IMG/VR virus record: IMGVR_UViG_3300042731_005244
Coordinates: 1-41,470 of that record
From: a virus
DNA: 41,470 nucleotides
Strand: one strand, 5' to 3'
Shown here in pieces: positions 20,503 through 33,144 of the stretch. Below the pieces are notes generated by a model. It did not search any database, was not told the origin of the DNA, and saw only the letters and a list, made by a program, of their open reading frames with translations. The position numbers and the translations under genes were made by a program. The number at the start of each line of letters is the position of its first letter. The first letter of the stretch is position 1.

Positions 20503-21911
20503 TGAGTATCGACAGGATTGATCATCCATGGGCTGAAAGTGGATCGCTTGAGACTACCCTTACAGACGACAAGCGCGATATCGGCTGGGTTGCAGGCGAC
20601 AGTCCTGACCAGCCAACGGTTGAACGATTTAACCTCTTGCAAAACGAAACAGACAATAAAATAAACGAAGCGATTGAGGTTGGCGTTGGGTCTGGAGCCG
20701 AAAAAACACCGTATTATCTTGGCCTATTTGAACATGGATCATCACCAATGCTGCCGGATGATGAATCCAATACTATTGCTCAGGGTAGCTCAGCAGGTGG
20801 CAGCTTAAACGATCTAGTTTACACCACAAAGGATGGAAAGAATATCATCCTGGCTGTCAGAGGTGACACTAGACTTGTTTTGTACGATATAGATAATATG
20901 GTATGGCTCGAGGATGTCGAAGAATCAACATTGGGCAGCATTGGAGATGAGATATATTCAGCTTGTTCGGACGGAACGTATGCTTACGTACTGTGGGCGG
21001 ATACTACAGCATCACCTGATGATTATTTTGTCCAAGCGTACGACATGTCTACGTGGAGCATAAAAGCAGGCTGGCCAGCTGGAGGCGTTGAATTAACCGC
21101 ACATGGTACAACGTTTACGTCTTTTCAGGCCAAAATTAGGATGGCAACCTCTGAAAAGCTTGTTGTGACACAACCGTGGGTTGTATTGTCAAGCGGGACT
21201 AGCGCTGCTGTATCGATATTATCGACTGACGATGGAACGATAGACGGTACTGGAGCAGGCGATTGTGGATCTTTATCATCCGGACAAATATTTGGCGCCT
21301 GCTCAAATGGCACATATGTTTTTTTGGCTATAGATAACGGTACTGATTTGATATTATCGTCGATGTCAATCGCTTCGCCAGGTTCTACAGGGTGTAGTTG
21401 GTCATGGACACCAAGTAGTTATACTACGGGAATCGCATCTACATATTTCGGCGGTATAGCATGCTGTGGCAACATGATAGTGATGACTTTTAATGATAAT
21501 ACCAACCTAGCAACGATATACACTACAGCACAAGGTCGGACGGCACACTTCCAGACATCAGACGCGGATGTGATCGAAAAGCTTGGGCCTGTTTGCTCAG
21601 ATGGTCTTAATTTCTGGGCCCTTGGGACCAGGGAGCGACAGGGGGCAACTGATGATATATTGATGTTATACAAATTTGAGACGCATGGCACAGGGTATTA
21701 TTCAACCGGGGCGTCAACATATGAGACGTACACAAACGGCGACGAATACTTCCACGGATTTAAATCAATGCCAACTCTACCAGATGGTTTTGCTGATTTC
21801 AGCGATAACCCAATTTCATCTGATGGAGATGCCATATGGTTTTGTCCTTCTACTGATGCATCAGGAACAGGTGCTTCGGTTTACAGATTAAGAAGATCTT
21901 TGTTTAGGTAA
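20502..21911 (+). CDS. Tail fibre / receptor-binding protein
   Basis: A 469-aa protein at the end of the baseplate operon. The first 60 residues (DRIDHPWAESGSLETTLTDD; ERFNLLQNETDNKINEAI) look like an attachment domain. From about residue 95 to the end there are repeating beta modules with CSDGTYAYVLW, CSNGTYVFLAI, CCGNMIVMTF and CSDGLNFWAL segments, spaced about 60-110 residues, like the blades of a beta-propeller. It is the most likely host-recognition protein of the tail. It ends 8 bases into the 3' end of the opposite-strand sigma gene, with no terminator between them. Confidence 0.6.
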   Translation: MSIDRIDHPWAESGSLETTLTDDKRDIGWVAGDSPDQPTVERFNLLQNETDNKINEAIEVGVGSGAEKTPYYLGLFEHGSSPMLPDDESNTIAQGSSAGGSLNDLVYTTKDGKNIILAVRGDTRLVLYDIDNMVWLEDVEESTLGSIGDEIYSACSDGTYAYVLWADTTASPDDYFVQAYDMSTWSIKAGWPAGGVELTAHGTTFTSFQAKIRMATSEKLVVTQPWVVLSSGTSAAVSILSTDDGTIDGTGAGDCGSLSSGQIFGACSNGTYVFLAIDNGTDLILSSMSIASPGSTGCSWSWTPSSYTTGIASTYFGGIACCGNMIVMTFNDNTNLATIYTTAQGRTAHFQTSDADVIEKLGPVCSDGLNFWALGTRERQGATDDILMLYKFETHGTGYYSTGASTYETYTNGDEYFHGFKSMPTLPDGFADFSDNPISSDGDAIWFCPSTDASGTGASVYRLRRSLFR

Positions 21912-22689
21912 GCTCAGACTTTAGCAAAATTTTAAGTTTGGCAATTGCCATTTTTTTTATTTGATCTATTCTCTGCCTGGTCACTCCGTACTCCTCACCT
22001 ATTGCTTCCATGGTTTTGCCCTGCAAGCAATGATCTTTCAAAATTATCTGTGCGATATCGTTAGGTACGCCAGCATTATTTCCAAAGCGCAAATGCACCT
22101 TATCTATCGTCTCTAGCAGTTTTTCTATCGTCTGTTTTGTGTCTAGCACATCCTCTATTTCTGGGTCAGGTGCAGCACCTGAAGACAAAACAGCCTCCTC
22201 ATCAATCCATCCTCGCCGGCTGTAGTCTTCGTTGTCGTTCTTGTTATACATATGCAAAACAGTCGTGGAATATTCTCGCTCTAAAAATGCAGTTCGGCTT
22301 TTTGTGCTGTTATATTTTGGCAGTATATTTTTTATTTCTGGCGAATCAATTGTCAGAGATGGATCTTTTTGGAGTTTTGCTTCCATTAGTAATTTTTTGT
22401 GCGCAGTGCCAAATGGAGCAAACACTAGTTTGTCTTCGTAGCTGTACTCACGTAGTAGCCTTCTGATCCAATACCACGCAATCGTCCCAAGTGATCCTCG
22501 GGATTCATCCCAAACTTTTACTGCTCGCATTAGTCCAAATGCTGCGATTTGATGGATATCATCTACTCTATTACTGTTTCTATCCTTGTCACTTGCGATC
22601 CATTTTTGAGCGTGAAACCTTGCTAGGCCAATATTTTCTTCGACTATTCTTGCTTCTCTAGGGCTCAGTGGTTCCATGTTTAGTCTCAT
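21904..22689 (-). CDS. Phage RNA polymerase sigma factor
   Basis: A 261-aa sigma70-family factor. Region 2 lies near residues 18-75 (LARFHAQKWIAS, VDDIHQIAAFGLMRAVKVWD, IAWYWIRRLLREY). Region 4 lies near residues 225-255 (MEAIGEEYGVTRQRIDQIKKMA), a helix-turn-helix that would read the -35 box. Between them is an acidic linker. I chose ATG 22689 rather than the upstream ATG 22716: it overlaps the stop of the previous gene by 4 bases (ATGA) and has AGGAG nine bases before it. As last gene of the leftward early operon it probably redirects host polymerase to late genes. Confidence 0.8.
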   Translation of the reverse strand: MRLNMEPLSPREARIVEENIGLARFHAQKWIASDKDRNSNRVDDIHQIAAFGLMRAVKVWDESRGSLGTIAWYWIRRLLREYSYEDKLVFAPFGTAHKKLLMEAKLQKDPSLTIDSPEIKNILPKYNSTKSRTAFLEREYSTTVLHMYNKNDNEDYSRRGWIDEEAVLSSGAAPDPEIEDVLDTKQTIEKLLETIDKVHLRFGNNAGVPNDIAQIILKDHCLQGKTMEAIGEEYGVTRQRIDQIKKMAIAKLKILLKSELT

Positions 22690-23279
22690 TGTTTGTTGCT
22701 CCTGCATCGTTTGCATATCGCGCGATATCCATCGCCAGCTTTGTGAAATTCACCGATATGCGGATATCCGTTATAACAAATCCCAATCCTTCCCGACTCA
22801 AGACCCTCTCGCATGGAGTCTTCATCTTCGCCGTTGTTATCCATAAATTTATCGATTTCTAACGTGGTTTCTATTCCCCGAATTGACCGAGTTTCTTGAG
22901 TGTTTTCTTTTTTGTTGTAATAACCACCCGTTGGCAATACCGCTCTATCTATTCTGCTCTGTTTTCCTGAAATGGTTGTTCCTGTTAGAACCTCATTCCG
23001 AAATGAGGCATAGTCAGAAACTATCTCATTTCGGCACATGGATTCCTCATATAAACCAATGCCTTCTTGGGTTATTACATAATTTTTCTTATCTACTGCA
23101 AGGTATCCGTTTTTTAGTCCTCTTGTAACCGCATCAATGATTATGTCGTTGTCTGTTGGCGATATTTTGCAAAGCAATTCGTTGTTAAAATCAACGTTAT
23201 CATTCTGGTGTCGCATCATTACGCCGAGGATTGAATACATCGTTTGTTCTATTTTTATTTCTCGCTGTTTATCTCTCAT
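22686..23279 (-). CDS. Winged-helix protein with C-terminal zinc finger
   Basis: A 197-aa protein. Residues about 5-80 form a winged-helix-like domain (EQTMYSILGVMMRHQ, DAVTRGLKNGYLAVDKK, YVITQEGIGLYEE). A long polar linker follows. The end holds CYNGYPHIGEFHKAGDGYRAICKRC, given here in parts: CYNGYPHIGEFH and GYRAICKRC. This is a treble-clef-like arrangement of Cys, then F, then C-x2-C, like the N-terminus of endonuclease VII-type zinc modules, though the first Cys pair is incomplete. It lies between the nuclease and sigma genes and may be a transcription or DNA-processing factor. Confidence 0.5.
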   Translation of the reverse strand: MRDKQREIKIEQTMYSILGVMMRHQNDNVDFNNELLCKISPTDNDIIIDAVTRGLKNGYLAVDKKNYVITQEGIGLYEESMCRNEIVSDYASFRNEVLTGTTISGKQSRIDRAVLPTGGYYNKKENTQETRSIRGIETTLEIDKFMDNNGEDEDSMREGLESGRIGICYNGYPHIGEFHKAGDGYRAICKRCRSNKQ

Positions 23280-23644
23280 GACAAATAATCTTCGATTTTA
23301 TCCAGTGCATCTTGGCACGAATATACAATATGCATTAGGTGGCCTTGGTTTTCCATGTCGATTCCCCACTCAAATTGACTGGCACTTAAACCTCCGTTTT
23401 TGCGTTTTTTATATTTTGGGTCTTTTACTTCAAGCCACATACTGTGATATCCTTTGATTCCTATCGCAAGCTGAAGGTCCCACACTCCTGATGTTACCCC
23501 CTCTCTCTTTAGCCTTGCTCCAGTTATGATATTTCTATTGCCGCCATTTGGGATAGCAAACAGCAGCGTTTTTAGCTCTGGCCAACGTTGTCTGGCGTGC
23601 TCAATAATCGAGCACTGTATGTCATGTTCATCATTGTTTCTCAC
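23276..23644 (-). CDS. VRR-NUC domain nuclease
   Basis: A 122-aa stand-alone VRR-NUC protein, a PD-(D/E)XK-type Holliday junction or structure-specific nuclease. Motifs in order: E6 near the start, IPNGGNRN (31-38), GARLKREGVTSGVWDLQLA (42-60, D56) and WLEVKDP (70-76, with E72 and K74 as metal-binding residues), then a C-terminal helix with ALDKIEDYL. The start is GTG 23644, with AAGGGAG seven bases upstream. It likely resolves branched replication intermediates before packaging, together with the exonuclease-annealase fusion upstream in the operon. Confidence 0.8.
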   Translation of the reverse strand: MRNNDEHDIQCSIIEHARQRWPELKTLLFAIPNGGNRNIITGARLKREGVTSGVWDLQLAIGIKGYHSMWLEVKDPKYKKRKNGGLSASQFEWGIDMENQGHLMHIVYSCQDALDKIEDYLS

Positions 23645-23810
23645 TTCTTTTCTCCCTTACTCGTTTGTTTATTATTTTGGCAGCAATTGCACCTAGTTTG
23701 TCGTACAAAGTCAACGCTTCGCTATCGGTCAGAACCATTATGTCCAGCCCTTGATCATCCTTGATTTCAACCGATAATAAAACGCCTGGAGTGTATTTTA
23801 CGTCAATCAT
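23631..23810 (-). CDS. 59-aa small protein of the recombination operon
   Basis: A small gene from ATG 23810 to TGA 23631-23633. The start overlaps the stop of the exonuclease-annealase gene by 4 bases (ATGA) and the end overlaps the VRR-NUC start by 14 bases. The product (MIDVKYTPGVLLSVEIKD, then a helix EALTLYDKLGAIAAKIINK and a basic tail) looks like a beta-hairpin followed by a helix. The tight overlaps are good evidence for translation. Function unknown; a partner of the nuclease or annealase is possible. Confidence 0.6.
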   Translation of the reverse strand: MIDVKYTPGVLLSVEIKDDQGLDIMVLTDSEALTLYDKLGAIAAKIINKRVREKRSEKQ

Positions 23811-24388
23811 TCCATCTCTTCCGTAGCGTAAAGGCCGTTAATAACATCCGGAAAAAGTTCTCTAATAATCATAGTTGCAGCTCGCCACTTGAGCATAATT
23901 GCAGGTTGTTTTATCCAGTTGTCTTTGCTAGCGAGTTCTAGTCGTTCAGCATCTTTCATCGTAAATGTTCTTTTTATTCCCTCAGGCGTGCCTTTCCTCT
24001 TACCGGCCCATGATGATTCAGAATCGGTAGTATCAACACAGTATAAATACTCACATTGCTGAGAAGCCAAAACCAAGCCAACCATAAGACTAGCGGCCAT
24101 GGTTGGCTTACCTTTGATAACGTTAATACCGTCGAGTGCTGTCGTAGCGTCAAGACCTAGGGCTCTGCCTCTCATGATAGTTACCATTATCGCCTGAGGA
24201 GTCGGAAATTTTGAGTAGAGCCGAGATTGAAAAAAGGCCTCTGAAATCCTGTAGCACTCATTGACCCCGATTGGCTCTAGGGATTGCCGGAACCCAACTG
24301 GGTCGTGTTGCACCGTTATTGCTGCGGTTTGTGCTGGCACGGGTTTTGTTTCTTGCGCAACGGTTTCTTCACTTGTTTTTTGCTGCAT
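23807..24388 (-). CDS. Candidate internal start: stand-alone RecT-like protein
   Basis: Inside the fusion gene, codon 240 is ATG (24388), in frame, and sits exactly at the start of the linker before the annealase domain. AAAGGAG (24395-24401 on the minus strand) lies 6 bases upstream, a near-perfect ribosome site and better than that of the full-length gene. Initiation here would give a 193-aa annealase alone, so one frame could make both a fusion and a free annealing protein. It may instead be a relic of a separate gene before fusion. Only the sequence evidence is direct. Confidence 0.5.
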   Translation of the reverse strand: MQQKTSEETVAQETKPVPAQTAAITVQHDPVGFRQSLEPIGVNECYRISEAFFQSRLYSKFPTPQAIMVTIMRGRALGLDATTALDGINVIKGKPTMAASLMVGLVLASQQCEYLYCVDTTDSESSWAGKRKGTPEGIKRTFTMKDAERLELASKDNWIKQPAIMLKWRAATMIIRELFPDVINGLYATEEME

Positions 24389-25105
24389 GTCTTTCTCCTT
24401 TTGCTCAATAGTTAGCACTGATGCGCAGTCTTGCAGCGTAATGAGTTTTTTCATCTCGAATATATATTCGAGAGCTGCGTTTAGGTTTGCGAGCGTAGAA
24501 GGCTTAAACTTATCTGGAGATCTCAATCTCTGCTCAAAAATCTCCTCAATGGAGCCAAAAGTGTCTAGAAGCGCAATTGCAGTCTTCGGGCCAACGCCTT
24601 TTACACCTGGAATATTGTCTGAGTTATCACCAATCAGTGTTAAAAAGTCGACAACTTGGCTACGTTTGACGCCAAGAGTGTTTTCGGCAGTTTTGCAGTT
24701 TCTGCTCCATGGCTCAATCACATCGCAACATTGCAGTAAATCTTTGTCGCTCCCATATACAACGGCATCCTTGTATTGATGTTGTATAAGTGTGTATATA
24801 ACGTCATCCGCTTCGTATTTTTTTGCTGAAGCCACTTTCCATCCATCGTTAAGTATCTCTTCGGTGCATCGCTTGAGCTCCTCCTGTGCAGCCTCGCTGC
24901 GGTCTGCTCGATTTGCCTTGTACTCTGGATATTCATCAGTTCTCCAGTAGGGTGGACTATCCAAAGCAACAATTACATCTCCGTTCCCATACAATGACCG
25001 CACAAATCCGAGTGTTTTCCTTCTGGCACTGGAAACTTCGTCTCCGTCTGAGGCATGCCAGTTCCGCCAATATAGAGCGGATAAATCAATTATCTGCGCT
25101 GGCAT
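23807..25105 (-). CDS. 5'-3' exonuclease fused to RecT-like annealing protein
   Basis: A 432-aa fusion. Residues 1-235 are a complete flap/5' exonuclease of the Pol I type: D7 (IIDLSAL), D49 (ALDSP), YKANR near 62-66, YEADD 97-101, GSDKD 118-122, LIGDNSDNIPGVKGVGPKTA (157-176; D160 and D163 bind metal, then helix-hairpin-helix). Residues 236-275 are a polar linker. Residues 280-432 look like a RecT-type single-strand annealing protein: RISEAFFQSRLYSKF, MRGRALGLDATTALDGINVI, GKPTMAASLMVGLVL, WRAATMIIRELFPDVINGLY. An exonuclease and an annealase are normally separate genes that work as a pair. GGGATGGAAG precedes ATG 25105. Confidence 0.75.
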   Translation of the reverse strand: MPAQIIDLSALYWRNWHASDGDEVSSARRKTLGFVRSLYGNGDVIVALDSPPYWRTDEYPEYKANRADRSEAAQEELKRCTEEILNDGWKVASAKKYEADDVIYTLIQHQYKDAVVYGSDKDLLQCCDVIEPWSRNCKTAENTLGVKRSQVVDFLTLIGDNSDNIPGVKGVGPKTAIALLDTFGSIEEIFEQRLRSPDKFKPSTLANLNAALEYIFEMKKLITLQDCASVLTIEQKEKDMQQKTSEETVAQETKPVPAQTAAITVQHDPVGFRQSLEPIGVNECYRISEAFFQSRLYSKFPTPQAIMVTIMRGRALGLDATTALDGINVIKGKPTMAASLMVGLVLASQQCEYLYCVDTTDSESSWAGKRKGTPEGIKRTFTMKDAERLELASKDNWIKQPAIMLKWRAATMIIRELFPDVINGLYATEEME

Positions 25106-27585: not shown

Positions 27586-28077
27586 GTGAGAGTAACAGTA
27601 GAAAAAGTTTTGGCCTTGAATCCATGTTACAGTCGCGAAGAAATCAAAACGCTCGCCGCTGGCAGAAAATGGGTTAGGCCTAGGACAATAGCAAAGATGG
27701 ATATAGCATACCGCGACAGGCTTTGGGTGTTAACAGGGTTGATGTCTGGGCAACAACAGGGCGAATTTGCGCGCAGATGTGCACTCGACGTTAAACGTTT
27801 CTGGGATGCGCCTGATATAGTAAAAAAATACTTAGAAACAGGGGATGGGGCGATTATGGAGGCTGCAAGGGAGGCGGCTTGGACAGCTGGCCGGCCCGCA
27901 TTTGCTGACCAGACATGGGATAGGGCTAGATCGTCAGCCTTCTCGGCGTCTCAGGCTGGATCCTGGGATGCGTGCAGGGATGCATCCTGGGATGCAGTTT
28001 ACGCCAATGTTGCCTCCAGACGCTTGGCGTGGGAAAAATATATCAGTTGGTGTGTTGAGTATTTAGACCAACAATAA
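27586..28077 (+). CDS. Paralogue 1 of the six-gene Ala-rich family
   Basis: A 163-aa protein starting at GTG 27586 (RVTVEKVLALNPCYSREE). The family core has three parts: an N-terminal CYSR...AGRKW...RTIAK segment, a DRLWVLTGLMS-x-x-Q-x-x-EFARRCALDV helix region, and an Ala-rich variable C-terminal half closed by EKYISWCVEYLD. This copy stands alone, before the small genes and dnaB, and ends DQQ rather than GTKE. The helix-rich A-x-x-A-W-D-A pattern resembles the Ala-rich proteins often annotated as Imm5-like immunity proteins; that link is from memory and weak. Function unknown. Confidence 0.6.
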   Translation: MRVTVEKVLALNPCYSREEIKTLAAGRKWVRPRTIAKMDIAYRDRLWVLTGLMSGQQQGEFARRCALDVKRFWDAPDIVKKYLETGDGAIMEAAREAAWTAGRPAFADQTWDRARSSAFSASQAGSWDACRDASWDAVYANVASRRLAWEKYISWCVEYLDQQ

Positions 28078-29803: not shown

Positions 29804-29813
29804 AGGAGATGAC

Positions 29814-30365
29814 ATGCGTGTGACACTGGAAAAAATATTGGAGATGGGCCCGTGCTATAGTAGAGGAAAAATCGAAAAACTTTTTGCTGGCCGAAAATGG
29901 CTTGCGCCTAGAACAATCTCTAAATTGAATATACCACCAGATGATCGGATTTGGGTATTAACAGGATTAATGTCAGGAAAGCAACAACGCGAATTTTCTC
30001 GCAGGTGTGCATTGGACGTTATACATTTATGGGATGCTTCACCGGTTGTAAAAAAATACTTAGAAACAGGCTATGAGGAGATTAGGGAGGCAGCTAAGGA
30101 GGCGGTATTATTCTCTGCCGTTTCTGCCGCCTGGGGCACGGATTGGGAAGCCCCTTGGCTAGCAACTAAAAAAGTGTCCACGAATGATAGCGTTGTAATA
30201 GCCAGGCGTGCAGCAATTGCAGCGTCAAGGGCCGCCGCAAACCATGTATGCGCGAACACGCCAGAGGTAGCGCCATGGGATTTAGTGAGGAACGCTGAAA
30301 TAGAAAAATATATCAGCTGGTGTATCGAATACCTCGATGGAACAAAGGAGATAACGTGCGAGTAA
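29814..30365 (+). CDS. Paralogue 2 of the Ala-rich family
   Basis: A 183-aa protein starting at ATG 29814 with AAGGAG (29803-29808), right after dnaB. It keeps the family core and ends EKYISWCIEYLDGTKEITCE. Its variable half (residues 95-155) is a private version with VSTNDSVVIARRAAIAAS. The stretch 29950-30025 is identical, base for base, to 30492-30567 in paralogue 3. The end overlaps the next GTG start by 10 bases; the GTKE codons supply the AAAGGAG ribosome site of the next copy. Function unknown. Confidence 0.65.
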   Translation: MRVTLEKILEMGPCYSRGKIEKLFAGRKWLAPRTISKLNIPPDDRIWVLTGLMSGKQQREFSRRCALDVIHLWDASPVVKKYLETGYEEIREAAKEAVLFSAVSAAWGTDWEAPWLATKKVSTNDSVVIARRAAIAASRAAANHVCANTPEVAPWDLVRNAEIEKYISWCIEYLDGTKEITCE

Positions 30366-30898
30366 CAATGGAAAAAATATTGGAGCTAAAGCCGTGTTAC
30401 AGTCGCGAAGAAATCGAAAAACTTTTTGCCGGTAGAAAATGGATTAGCCCTAGAACAATCGCTAGATTGGATATCCCTTTAGATGATCGACTTTGGGTAT
30501 TAACAGGATTAATGTCAGGAAAGCAACAACGCGAATTTTCTCGCAGGTGTGCATTGGACGTTATACACCTCTGGGAAGCGCCGGATATAGTAAAAAAATA
30601 CCTGAAAACTGGCGATGAGGATATTAGGGAGGCAGCAAATAAGATCGATTGGTACGATGCCATCGCAGCAGCGATGTATGAATTTAAGGCAGCAGCAAGG
30701 GACGCAGCAGCTCTGGCAACAACGACTGACGAAACATGGGCCTCAGCAAGAGCTGCCGCTAGAGCCACAGCGAGTCATGTTTCTGGAAACATGCCCGATG
30801 TGGCATCTTGGAATTTTGCTTGGACCGACGCAATGGAAAAATATATTGGCTGGTGTGTCGAATACCTCGATGGGACAAAGGAGATAACGTGCGAGTAA
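30356..30898 (+). CDS. Paralogue 3 of the Ala-rich family
   Basis: A 180-aa protein from GTG 30356, translated VRVTMEKILELKPCYS. Its first half is close to copy 2. Its variable half has MYEFKAAARDAAALATTTDE and then a segment WASARAAARATASH, which it shares with paralogue 6 (34 identical bases at 30735-30768 and 32298-32331). Overlap with both neighbours is 10 bases, and the next copy's ribosome site lies in its last codons. The pattern of one half like copy 2 and another like copy 6 points to recombination between copies. Function unknown. Confidence 0.65.
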   Translation: MRVTMEKILELKPCYSREEIEKLFAGRKWISPRTIARLDIPLDDRLWVLTGLMSGKQQREFSRRCALDVIHLWEAPDIVKKYLKTGDEDIREAANKIDWYDAIAAAMYEFKAAARDAAALATTTDETWASARAAARATASHVSGNMPDVASWNFAWTDAMEKYIGWCVEYLDGTKEITCE

Positions 30899-31407
30899 CA
30901 ATGGAAAAAATATTGGCGCTAAGGCCATGCTACAGCAGGAAAAAGATCGAAAAACTTTTTGCCGGTAGAAAATGGATTTGCACTAGAACAATAGCTAATT
31001 TAGACATCCCACACGGTGACAGGCTTTGGGTGTTAACCGGGCTAATGTCAATAAAACAATGTCGAGAATTTGCTCGACGTTGTGCACTCGACGTTATCCA
31101 TTTATGTGAGGCACCTGATATTGTAAAAGACTACCTTAAAACAGTCGATGAGGAGATTAGAGAGGCGGCTTGGGACGCGGTAAACAGTAAAATCTGTTCG
31201 CTCGTTTGTGATTTCGCCTGTTCAGCGGCTTGCACAAGAGATCCAGAAATAACCAGAGATGCTGCATATCACACCGCTTGGGAAGCGGCTAGAGAGGCGG
31301 TTTTTGACACTGCCAAATATACGACTTACGAGGAAAACTGTGAAAAATACATCAGTTGGTGTGTAGAGTATCTCGATGGAACAAAGGAGATGACATGCGT
31401 GGGATAA
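30889..31407 (+). CDS. Paralogue 4 of the Ala-rich family
   Basis: A 172-aa protein from GTG 30889. It has the family core with RRCALDVIHLCEAP (Cys in place of the Trp seen in copies 2, 3 and 6). Its variable half is Cys-rich (KICSLVCDFACSAACTRDPE) and nearly identical to copy 5: 70 consecutive bases at 31228-31297 match 31734-31803. It ends GTKEMTCVG, the only copy with this end. The overlap with copy 5 is 13 bases. Function unknown. Confidence 0.65.
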   Translation: MRVTMEKILALRPCYSRKKIEKLFAGRKWICTRTIANLDIPHGDRLWVLTGLMSIKQCREFARRCALDVIHLCEAPDIVKDYLKTVDEEIREAAWDAVNSKICSLVCDFACSAACTRDPEITRDAAYHTAWEAAREAVFDTAKYTTYEENCEKYISWCVEYLDGTKEMTCVG

Positions 31408-31910
31408 TGGAAAAAATAATGAAGATGGATCCCTGCTATAGCAAGAAAAAAACCGAAGAAATATTTGCCGTTAGAAAATGGCTTACGCCTATAACAATCG
31501 CGAAATTGGATATTCCGCTAAATGATAGGCTCTGGGTGTTAATAGGCTTGCTCTCACAACAACAACAACGCGAATTTTCTCGCCGATGTGCACTGGACGT
31601 AATTCACTTATGTGTTGCTCCACCGGTTGTAAAAAAATATTTAAAAACTGGTGATGAGACGATTAGGGAGGCAGCTTGGCTCGCGGTAAACAGTAATATC
31701 TGCTCATTCGTTTGTGATTTCGCCTTTTCTGCTGCTTGCACAAGAGATCCAGAAATAACCAGAGATGCTGCATATCACACCGCTTGGGAAGCGGCTAGAG
31801 AGGGAGTTTGGGACACTGCCAAATATACGACTTACGAGGAAAACTGTGAAAAATATATCAGTTGGTGTGTCGAATACCTCGATGGAACAAAGGAGACAAC
31901 GTGCGAGTAA
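31395..31910 (+). CDS. Paralogue 5 of the Ala-rich family
   Basis: A 171-aa protein from ATG 31395 (AAGGAG at 31384-31389). Its N-terminal half is the most diverged (MRGIMEKIMKMDPCYSKKKT, VRKWLTPITIAK, LIGLLSQQQQREFSRRC). Its C-terminal half repeats that of copy 4 with few changes. A diverged first half joined to a near-identical second half is best explained by gene conversion or crossover. It ends GTKETTCE, overlapping copy 6 by 10 bases. Function unknown. Confidence 0.65.
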   Translation: MRGIMEKIMKMDPCYSKKKTEEIFAVRKWLTPITIAKLDIPLNDRLWVLIGLLSQQQQREFSRRCALDVIHLCVAPPVVKKYLKTGDETIREAAWLAVNSNICSFVCDFAFSAACTRDPEITRDAAYHTAWEAAREGVWDTAKYTTYEENCEKYISWCVEYLDGTKETTCE

Positions 31911-32470
31911 CGATGGAAAAAATAATGAATATGGGCCCATGCTATAGTAGATGGAAGATCGAAAAAATTTTTGCTGGTAGAAAATGGCTTAGCCATAGAA
32001 CAATAGCCAGATTGAATATATCGCTAAACGATCGACTCTGGGTATTGATAAAATTGATGCCTGAAAAACAATGTCGTGAATTTGCCCGCAAATGTGCACT
32101 TGATGTAATCCATCTTTGGAATGCTCCTGATATTGTAATAAGATATCTCGAAACAGGTGATGAGGAGATTAGGGAGGCAGCCAGGGAAGCGGCTAGTGCA
32201 GCAGTCCGGCCCGAATTTGCCGACTTGGCATGGGATTCAGCTATAGCATCAGCTTTCTCGGCGTCTCAGGCTGGATCCTGGGAAGCGGCTAGGGATGCAT
32301 GGGCCTCAGCAAGAGCTGCCGCTAGAGCCACGGCTAATCAGATATCTCTGAGCATACCCGAGGCAGCTCCATGGGATGTTGTTTGGGCTGAGGCAATGGA
32401 AAAATATATCGTCTGGTGTGTGGAGTATTTGGATATGCAATGTTTTTGGCGGAGCTTATGTGTCCGCTGA
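31901..32470 (+). CDS. Paralogue 6 of the Ala-rich family
   Basis: A 189-aa protein from GTG 31901. The core has LIKLMPEKQCREFARKCALDV. Its variable half joins a segment shared with copy 1 (29 identical bases, 27940-27968 and 32255-32283) to one shared with copy 3 (32298-32331), so it is a mosaic of both. It ends with EKYIVWCVEYLDMQCFWRSLCVR: the GTKE end is lost and a different tail follows, fitting the last copy of a tandem array. Function unknown. Confidence 0.65.
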   Translation: MRVTMEKIMNMGPCYSRWKIEKIFAGRKWLSHRTIARLNISLNDRLWVLIKLMPEKQCREFARKCALDVIHLWNAPDIVIRYLETGDEEIREAAREAASAAVRPEFADLAWDSAIASAFSASQAGSWEAARDAWASARAAARATANQISLSIPEAAPWDVVWAEAMEKYIVWCVEYLDMQCFWRSLCVR

Positions 32471-32517: not shown

Positions 32518-33144
32518 ATGAGGATTACAGGTGTAATGGGGGGTGCTTTGCCATTTGTTGCTGTACTATCGGCTGGGTGCTACGAGTCTAGCTTTTGTGC
32601 GGAGGATTTCATTTCTGACAGCTGTATCGGCGATAGTGACCGAGTGTGGTATTTTTCAAATTCCTTCAGCTCTGATGAGCTTGCCGAAATTGCCGATGCG
32701 ATTGATACAGTCAATGACATATTTAACGCTGACATACAGGTCTGTGGGATAATCGGAGGTACCAAGGCAACTGGCACTATCAGAGATGGTAAATATAGTG
32801 TGAGTGGGCTGGAATATTCTGGGTTTATTTGCACTGAGGCTCCATACCATTGCTGGTACCTGGACGATTATCAAGACCCTGGCATCAGGGTATTTCAGAG
32901 GGACTATACATCCAGTGGGGATACAACAGGGTATTGTCAGTATAGCGCTGGTGGGGATATTATTTTGAACACTCAAAATATTAGAAATGAGCGTCATTTT
33001 CGCAAGGTGATTTTGCATGAGATTGGACATTATCTAGGCTTCAGGGGGCATCTTGATGACCCTGACAATATAATGGCTCAAGGATGGAGTGGGGTGTCAG
33101 AATACACACAAGCGGATATTGATGGAATTTCGAACAGCATGTAA
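32518..33144 (+). CDS. Metzincin-like zinc protease, predicted lipoprotein
   Basis: A 208-aa protein with a signal peptide (MRITGVMGGALPFVAVLSAGC, lipobox LSAGC with C21 as lipid site), so probably anchored in the outer or inner membrane of the infected cell. Residues 167-178 read HEIGHYLGFRGH and residues 183-186 DNIM, the zinc-binding helix and Met-turn of the matrixin/metzincin clan. The usual spacing is HExxHxxGxxH; here one extra residue (G177) pushes the third His to 178. Several cysteines suggest disulfides. AAAGGAG at 32506-32512. It could act on host surface proteins. An odd gene for a phage. Confidence 0.6.
   Translation: MRITGVMGGALPFVAVLSAGCYESSFCAEDFISDSCIGDSDRVWYFSNSFSSDELAEIADAIDTVNDIFNADIQVCGIIGGTKATGTIRDGKYSVSGLEYSGFICTEAPYHCWYLDDYQDPGIRVFQRDYTSSGDTTGYCQYSAGGDIILNTQNIRNERHFRKVILHEIGHYLGFRGHLDDPDNIMAQGWSGVSEYTQADIDGISNSM

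Follow-up and report, generated by a model that had tools for sequence, protein, structure and literature searches.

Phage exonucleases and annealing proteins are normally two proteins, and in this textbook arrangement they form a complex that loads the annealase onto the newly made 3' strand (PMC9772228). The locus studied here raises the question of whether one phage gene can encode both partners in a single chain and, as an earlier note on this DNA had proposed, whether the same frame could also yield free annealase. The window analyzed is the whole of an IMG/VR virus record (IMGVR_UViG_3300042731_005244; 41,470 bases), which encodes a tail sheath and a tape measure protein, and thus represents a phage with a contractile tail, as well as a DnaB-type helicase. 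A sheath query returned no relatives of this record and a DnaB query a single 28% relative; neither query thus revealed a close relative. The gene in question is a single open frame embedded in an operon of tightly overlapping minus-strand genes that runs from 25385 down to 21904 (Table 1), and its 3' stop looks native, since the next gene begins in an ATGA overlap. Pfam and PHROG searches gave no family for the ORF upstream of it, and no family match was found for the short ORF on its 3' side. When the protein was modeled with AlphaFold2 using an alignment of 37 fusions, the mean pLDDT was 90 and both domains were confident, while the pTM of 0.59 fits two domains whose mutual orientation is predicted to be free.

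Table 1. Features of the fusion gene and its operon (positions in the 41,470-base window)
Feature	Position	Strand	Details
Exonuclease-annealase fusion gene	23807..25105	-	ATG start, 432 aa, without internal stop
FEN/T5 D15-type 5'-3' exonuclease domain	24398..25105	-	Residues 1-236
Disordered linker	24290..24397	-	Residues 237-272; pLDDT <50 at 241-272
RecT/Redβ-type annealing domain	23810..24289	-	Residues 273-432
AAAGGAG, Shine-Dalgarno-like	24395..24401	-	6 bases 5' of in-frame ATG 24388
Putative free annealase from internal ATG	23807..24388	-	193 aa; inferred product
Upstream ORF, 99 aa	25086..25385	-	20-base overlap with fusion start
Downstream ORF, 59 aa	23631..23810	-	ATGA overlap with the stop of the fusion
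Nuclease-like gene	23276..23644	-	PHROG 824; PHROG 5702 'Holliday junction resolvase', E 4e-8
Operon gene	22686..23279	-	Next after nuclease-like gene
Sigma-factor-like gene, last in recombination operon	21904..22716	-	Sigma70 regions 2 and 4 (Pfam); PHROG 351, E 2.5e-17

The earlier note had assigned residues 1-235 to a 5' exonuclease with all of its acidic motifs, and profiles, fold and active-site residues all bear this out. Pfam 5_3_exonuc_N (PF02739) matches residues 5-130 (E 1.9e-19; 70.4 bits against a curated cut-off of 34.3), Pfam 5_3_exonuc (PF01367) matches residues 147-230 (E 2.1e-21; 76.6 bits against a curated cut-off of 40), and both profiles are matched by 37 of 37 members of the fusion family. 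In an alignment to T5 D15, all nine active-site acids (D26, D68, E128, D130, D131, D153, D155, D201 and D204 in T5) and the arch residues K83 and R86 have counterparts in the fusion, namely D7, D49, E98, D100, D101, D120, D122, D160 and D163, with K63 and R66; the Cat1 and Cat2 acids and the basic arch residues are invariant in all 37 fusions. The modeled domain matches FEN, ExoIX and T5 D15 structures in Foldseek (E 1e-13) and aligns to ExoIX, T5 D15 and Mycobacterium smegmatis FEN with VIA-align Z scores of 22-25. Thus, a two-metal 5' nuclease of T5 D15/Pol I type is complete in the N-terminal half, which is predicted to be active. In T5, Cat1 alone suffices for flap cleavage, while 5'-3' exonuclease activity requires both sites (PMC3783174), and the conservation of Cat2 in the fusions argues for a true exonuclease.

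We also found that the C-terminal part is linked to the Redβ, RecT and RAD52 proteins, so that the RecT assignment survives the structure search by which the earlier note had proposed to challenge it, although the domain starts near residue 273 and not at residue 280. PHROG 4171 ('RecT-like ssDNA annealing protein') matches residues 308-430 with an E value of 7.8e-15, or 6.6e-16 when the RecT part is searched alone; PHROG matches to RecT-like annealing proteins span residues 304-432 overall, and the RecT profile is matched by 34 of 37 family members. Pfam RecT (PF03837) gives 15-18 bits for the fusion of this phage against a gathering score of 24 and reaches E<=0.001 in 15 of the 37 members. 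When the annealing domain was folded alone, Redβ (7UJL; E 1.6e-4) was its sole Foldseek match below 1e-3, and the VIA Z scores of the model were 9.3 to Redβ, 6.7 to LiRecT, 6.4 to RAD52 and 5.8 to Sak. R415 aligns to Redβ R161 and does not vary in any of the 37 fusions, and W397, the counterpart of Redβ W143, is kept in 34 of 37; mutation of R161 in Redβ lowers annealing about 1000-fold (PMC9512822). Residues 273-432 are thus a RecT/Redβ annealing domain, for which annealing activity is predicted. In a survey of more than 10,000 annealing proteins (PMC11783212), the annealing domain was N-terminal, with a partner-binding region C-terminal to it. In the fusion, the RecT-family domain sits C-terminally instead, and the family is an exception to the placement described in that survey.

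The two domains are joined by a Pro-, Ala- and Glu-rich linker that has 36 residues in this phage and varies from 35 to 122 residues across the family. At the other end of the annealing domain, all fusions have only 1-14 residues beyond E430, and the domain ends where the C-terminal tail starts in standalone RecTs; most standalone relatives carry an extra stretch past the annealing core, often of 70-130 residues (that of L008 is short). Loss of this tail through a frameshift was considered and rejected, since the next gene starts in the ATGA overlap and all fusions end alike. λ Redβ still anneals without its C-terminal part but needs this part for recombination, partly through the contact that it makes with the exonuclease (PMC5052646). 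By analogy, we interpret the covalent linker most simply as a probable replacement for the contact that a Redβ-type tail makes with the exonuclease. In one large branch of the family (the L120-L148 group, L118, L109 and L117), the linker also contains a conserved motif, approximately D-I-x-E-A-M/L-P-T, which may be a candidate binding motif for a partner protein.

The fusion recurs well beyond this phage: besides its own gene, 68 further distinct fusions in 55 clusters were found in IMG/VR records. Single-sequence queries returned standalone RecTs only, a single-protein scan with the nuclease half gave no match, and the family surfaced only when an alignment served as the query. The exonuclease alignment returned 80 IMG/VR loci, about half of which encode the fusion, and two scans with RecT patterns alone added about 30 fusions; in the RecT subfamily to which they belong, nearly all full-length members are fused. 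The fusion was not found in 50,697 phage records or 72,556 plasmid records, where no place covered 80% of the query. It was also absent from about 1,090 sampled bacterial genomes (398 Pseudomonadota, 396 Actinomycetota and 296 Bacteroidota, the last with zero RecT matches and thus without a positive control), of which 11 encode RecT, always as a standalone protein. UniProt entry A0A6J5MUB0, from an uncultured Caudovirales phage (462 aa), aligns along its entire length (466 columns) with 29% identity (E 2e-32) and is almost certainly the same fusion as judged from this alignment; its name, 'PIN_53EXO domain containing protein', covers the nuclease half only, and we found no study of the protein in the open-access literature.

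How often the two halves were joined was addressed with a tree of each. In the RecT-half tree, the fusions lie on one side of one branch against 23 standalone RecTs, with one state change, and in the nuclease-half tree a single branch likewise separates them from Pol I and standalone phage FENs; the respective supports of 93 and 94 are just below the program's star, and both trees contain long branches. This pattern points to one old fusion event as the likely origin of the whole family. Only this phage's own record has a recognizable tail sheath among the carriers examined, and the fusions are probably carried by phages of more than one type. Near the fusion, 24 relatives (for example, L109) have a conserved gene of about 135-165 aa on the 3' side, one of which was checked and had no PHROG match, and other relatives have a RusA-like resolvase (PHROG 244) or PHROG 503 close by.

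Several known systems share parts of this design. Like the fusion, lambda Red combines a 5'-3' exonuclease with a physically associated annealase of the Redβ fold; in contrast, λ Exo and Redβ are the products of two genes, λ Exo is a PD-(D/E)XK toroid where the fused nuclease is of the FEN type, and in Redβ the annealing domain is N-terminal and a C-terminal domain binds Exo, while in the fusion the annealing domain is C-terminal and has no tail. The RecE/RecT pair of the Rac prophage and the RecE-like/RecT pairs of phages also couple a RecT-family annealase to an exonuclease, but as separate neighboring genes with a RecE-type exonuclease (for example, in Gordonia phages Hortense and Wizard). 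T7 uses a FEN-superfamily 5'-3' exonuclease, gp6, which serves recombination with the annealing protein gp2.5; these are again two separate genes, and gp2.5 is an OB-fold single-strand binding protein, not a RecT. T5 D15 and the 5' nuclease domain of bacterial Pol I have the fold and active site of the N-terminal half, but T5 D15 stands alone and the partner in Pol I is a polymerase, where the fusion has an annealing domain. The domain assignments and models suggest that the fusion probably works like λ Red, although it lies outside the two-gene systems (λ Red and RecET).

We consider it rather probable that the protein is a single-chain version of the phage exonuclease-annealase recombinase, with a tether in place of the Redβ tail. 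The N-terminal FEN-type domain would degrade 5' strands at DNA ends, gaps or flaps, and the RecT domain, on its flexible linker, would coat the exposed 3' strand and anneal it to its complement. The covalent link would hold annealase and exonuclease together, the job of the Redβ C-terminal domain in lambda, and with the linker doing this job, a Redβ-type C-terminal domain could have been lost. We count the Holliday-junction-resolvase-like gene in the same operon in favor of this proposal. For some family members, perhaps this phage among them, we further propose that another ribosome site at the linker adds free annealase, which would relieve the 1:1 ratio imposed by the fusion and supply extra subunits for the annealase oligomer.

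The fusion could, in principle, be an artefact in which a sequencing error removed a stop between adjacent genes, the alternative that the earlier note had raised for the region near codon 235. Several codons near residue 235 are indeed one change away from a stop, and two nearly identical loci, L114:2752-4597 and L108:2752-4596, differ by a frameshift at the domain boundary that gives L114 two overlapping frames; this split, also seen as L255, reflects either an assembly error or a natural division of the gene. However, the same joined frame occurs in 68 distinct relatives, open frames of 437-780 aa are present in all 41 of the long records compared (this phage's own and 40 carriers; IMG/VR records may be incomplete), and the fusions form one group in each tree, so a sequencing error is rejected as the origin of the fusion and we regard it as extremely improbable. 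The main rival to a single-chain recombinase concerns the substrate instead. Structure-specific flap cleavage, and not processive end resection of the lambda Exo kind, is what FEN enzymes are best known for, and flaps or RNA primers could therefore be the main substrate of the fusion. The protein would then be a replication-maturation enzyme: its RecT domain would bind an annealed lagging-strand or repair intermediate, and its FEN domain would trim 5' flaps and RNA primers without resecting long stretches. Such flap and primer removal is the best-known role of FEN folds, RecT-family proteins act at the lagging strand, and the DnaB-type helicase of the same phage is in keeping with it. Against it, the Cat2 acids kept in every fusion are, in T5, needed specifically for exonuclease activity and not for flap cleavage (PMC3783174). 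In addition, a resecting exonuclease normally accompanies RecT genes (PMC8093625), but in the carrier records the two alternative PD-(D/E)XK families sought, YqaJ and DUF3799, were absent from all 41, and the fused protein was the one FEN-family nuclease match in each of these possibly incomplete records. We judge the maturation role unlikely, and resection and flap or primer trimming may both take place.

A different emphasis, compatible with a single-chain recombinase, makes two products the main point, with full-length fusion as a minor loader and free RecT as the bulk annealase. The in-frame ATG and the AAAGGAG upstream of it, from which the earlier note had proposed both a fusion and a free annealase, are present as described. 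The hybridization energy of this site to the anti-Shine-Dalgarno sequence is -8.0 kcal/mol, compared to -4.4 kcal/mol at the fusion's own start, -8.5 kcal/mol for dnaB and -7.2 kcal/mol for the sheath gene of the same phage, and only 1.1% of 366 in-frame ATGs elsewhere in fusion genes reach -8. Among synonymous reshuffles of this stretch in the fusion of this phage, 20% equal or beat the site because K-E-K codons resemble a Shine-Dalgarno sequence, and a synonymous-codon shuffle over 42 fusion genes gave no signal of codon-level selection (Fisher p=0.44), with acidic and lysine codons explaining the motif. Because the linker can vary freely, selection might also work via the amino acids of the linker, which such a shuffle does not detect. 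We also asked whether Shine-Dalgarno-like sequence precedes the first in-frame ATG of a linker more than it precedes the remaining codons of that linker. In an exploratory set of 27 clusters that left out this phage's own, linker ATGs follow such sequence beyond expectation (p=0.002), while GTG, TTG, control codons, other frames and ATGs within domains were flat. A hold-out of 23 new clusters went in the same direction (p=0.11), and pooling 52 clusters gave p=0.0006; one control codon, CTG, scored p=0.04 among the hold-out clusters, which therefore do not make a clean test, and we treat the linker-ATG signal as suggestive. Many fusions lack a strong internal site and several lack any linker ATG. 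Two products would address a recognized puzzle of stoichiometry, that of matching an annealase oligomer to an exonuclease trimer (PMC9512822). On this sequence evidence, two products from one frame are plausible, and we rate their being the main point somewhat short of an even chance. The fuller claim, that the family is an anciently fused one-chain recombinase in which the linker stands in for the λ Red contact and an in-frame linker site makes extra annealase, we regard as somewhat doubtful.

Both domains are known and their pairing as two proteins is textbook knowledge; we found no description of an exonuclease-annealase fusion in the open-access literature. It has been stated as an open question how an exonuclease trimer and an annealase oligomer come to form a 1:1 complex (PMC9512822). 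With a fusion that is naturally 1:1, whether or not extra free annealase is made as well, loading and stoichiometry become directly testable. Its presence in at least 69 uncultivated phages offers a natural test of why exonuclease and annealase must cooperate, and a recombinase that is complete in one gene would be a useful candidate for recombineering.

Elsewhere in the window, on the plus strand, positions 27586-28077 and about 29813-32470 hold six or more paralogous genes arrayed in tandem, each coding for about 165-185 aa and overlapping the next, whose products share the pattern 'EKIL..GPCYSR..IEKLFAGRKW..RTIA.LDIP..DRLWVLTGLMS..Q.REF.RRCALDVIHLW', an Ala-rich middle and a 'EKYISWCVEYLD' end. 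Positions 32518-33144 (plus strand) encode a metalloprotease-like protein (Pfam Peptidase_M10, E 1.3e-5).
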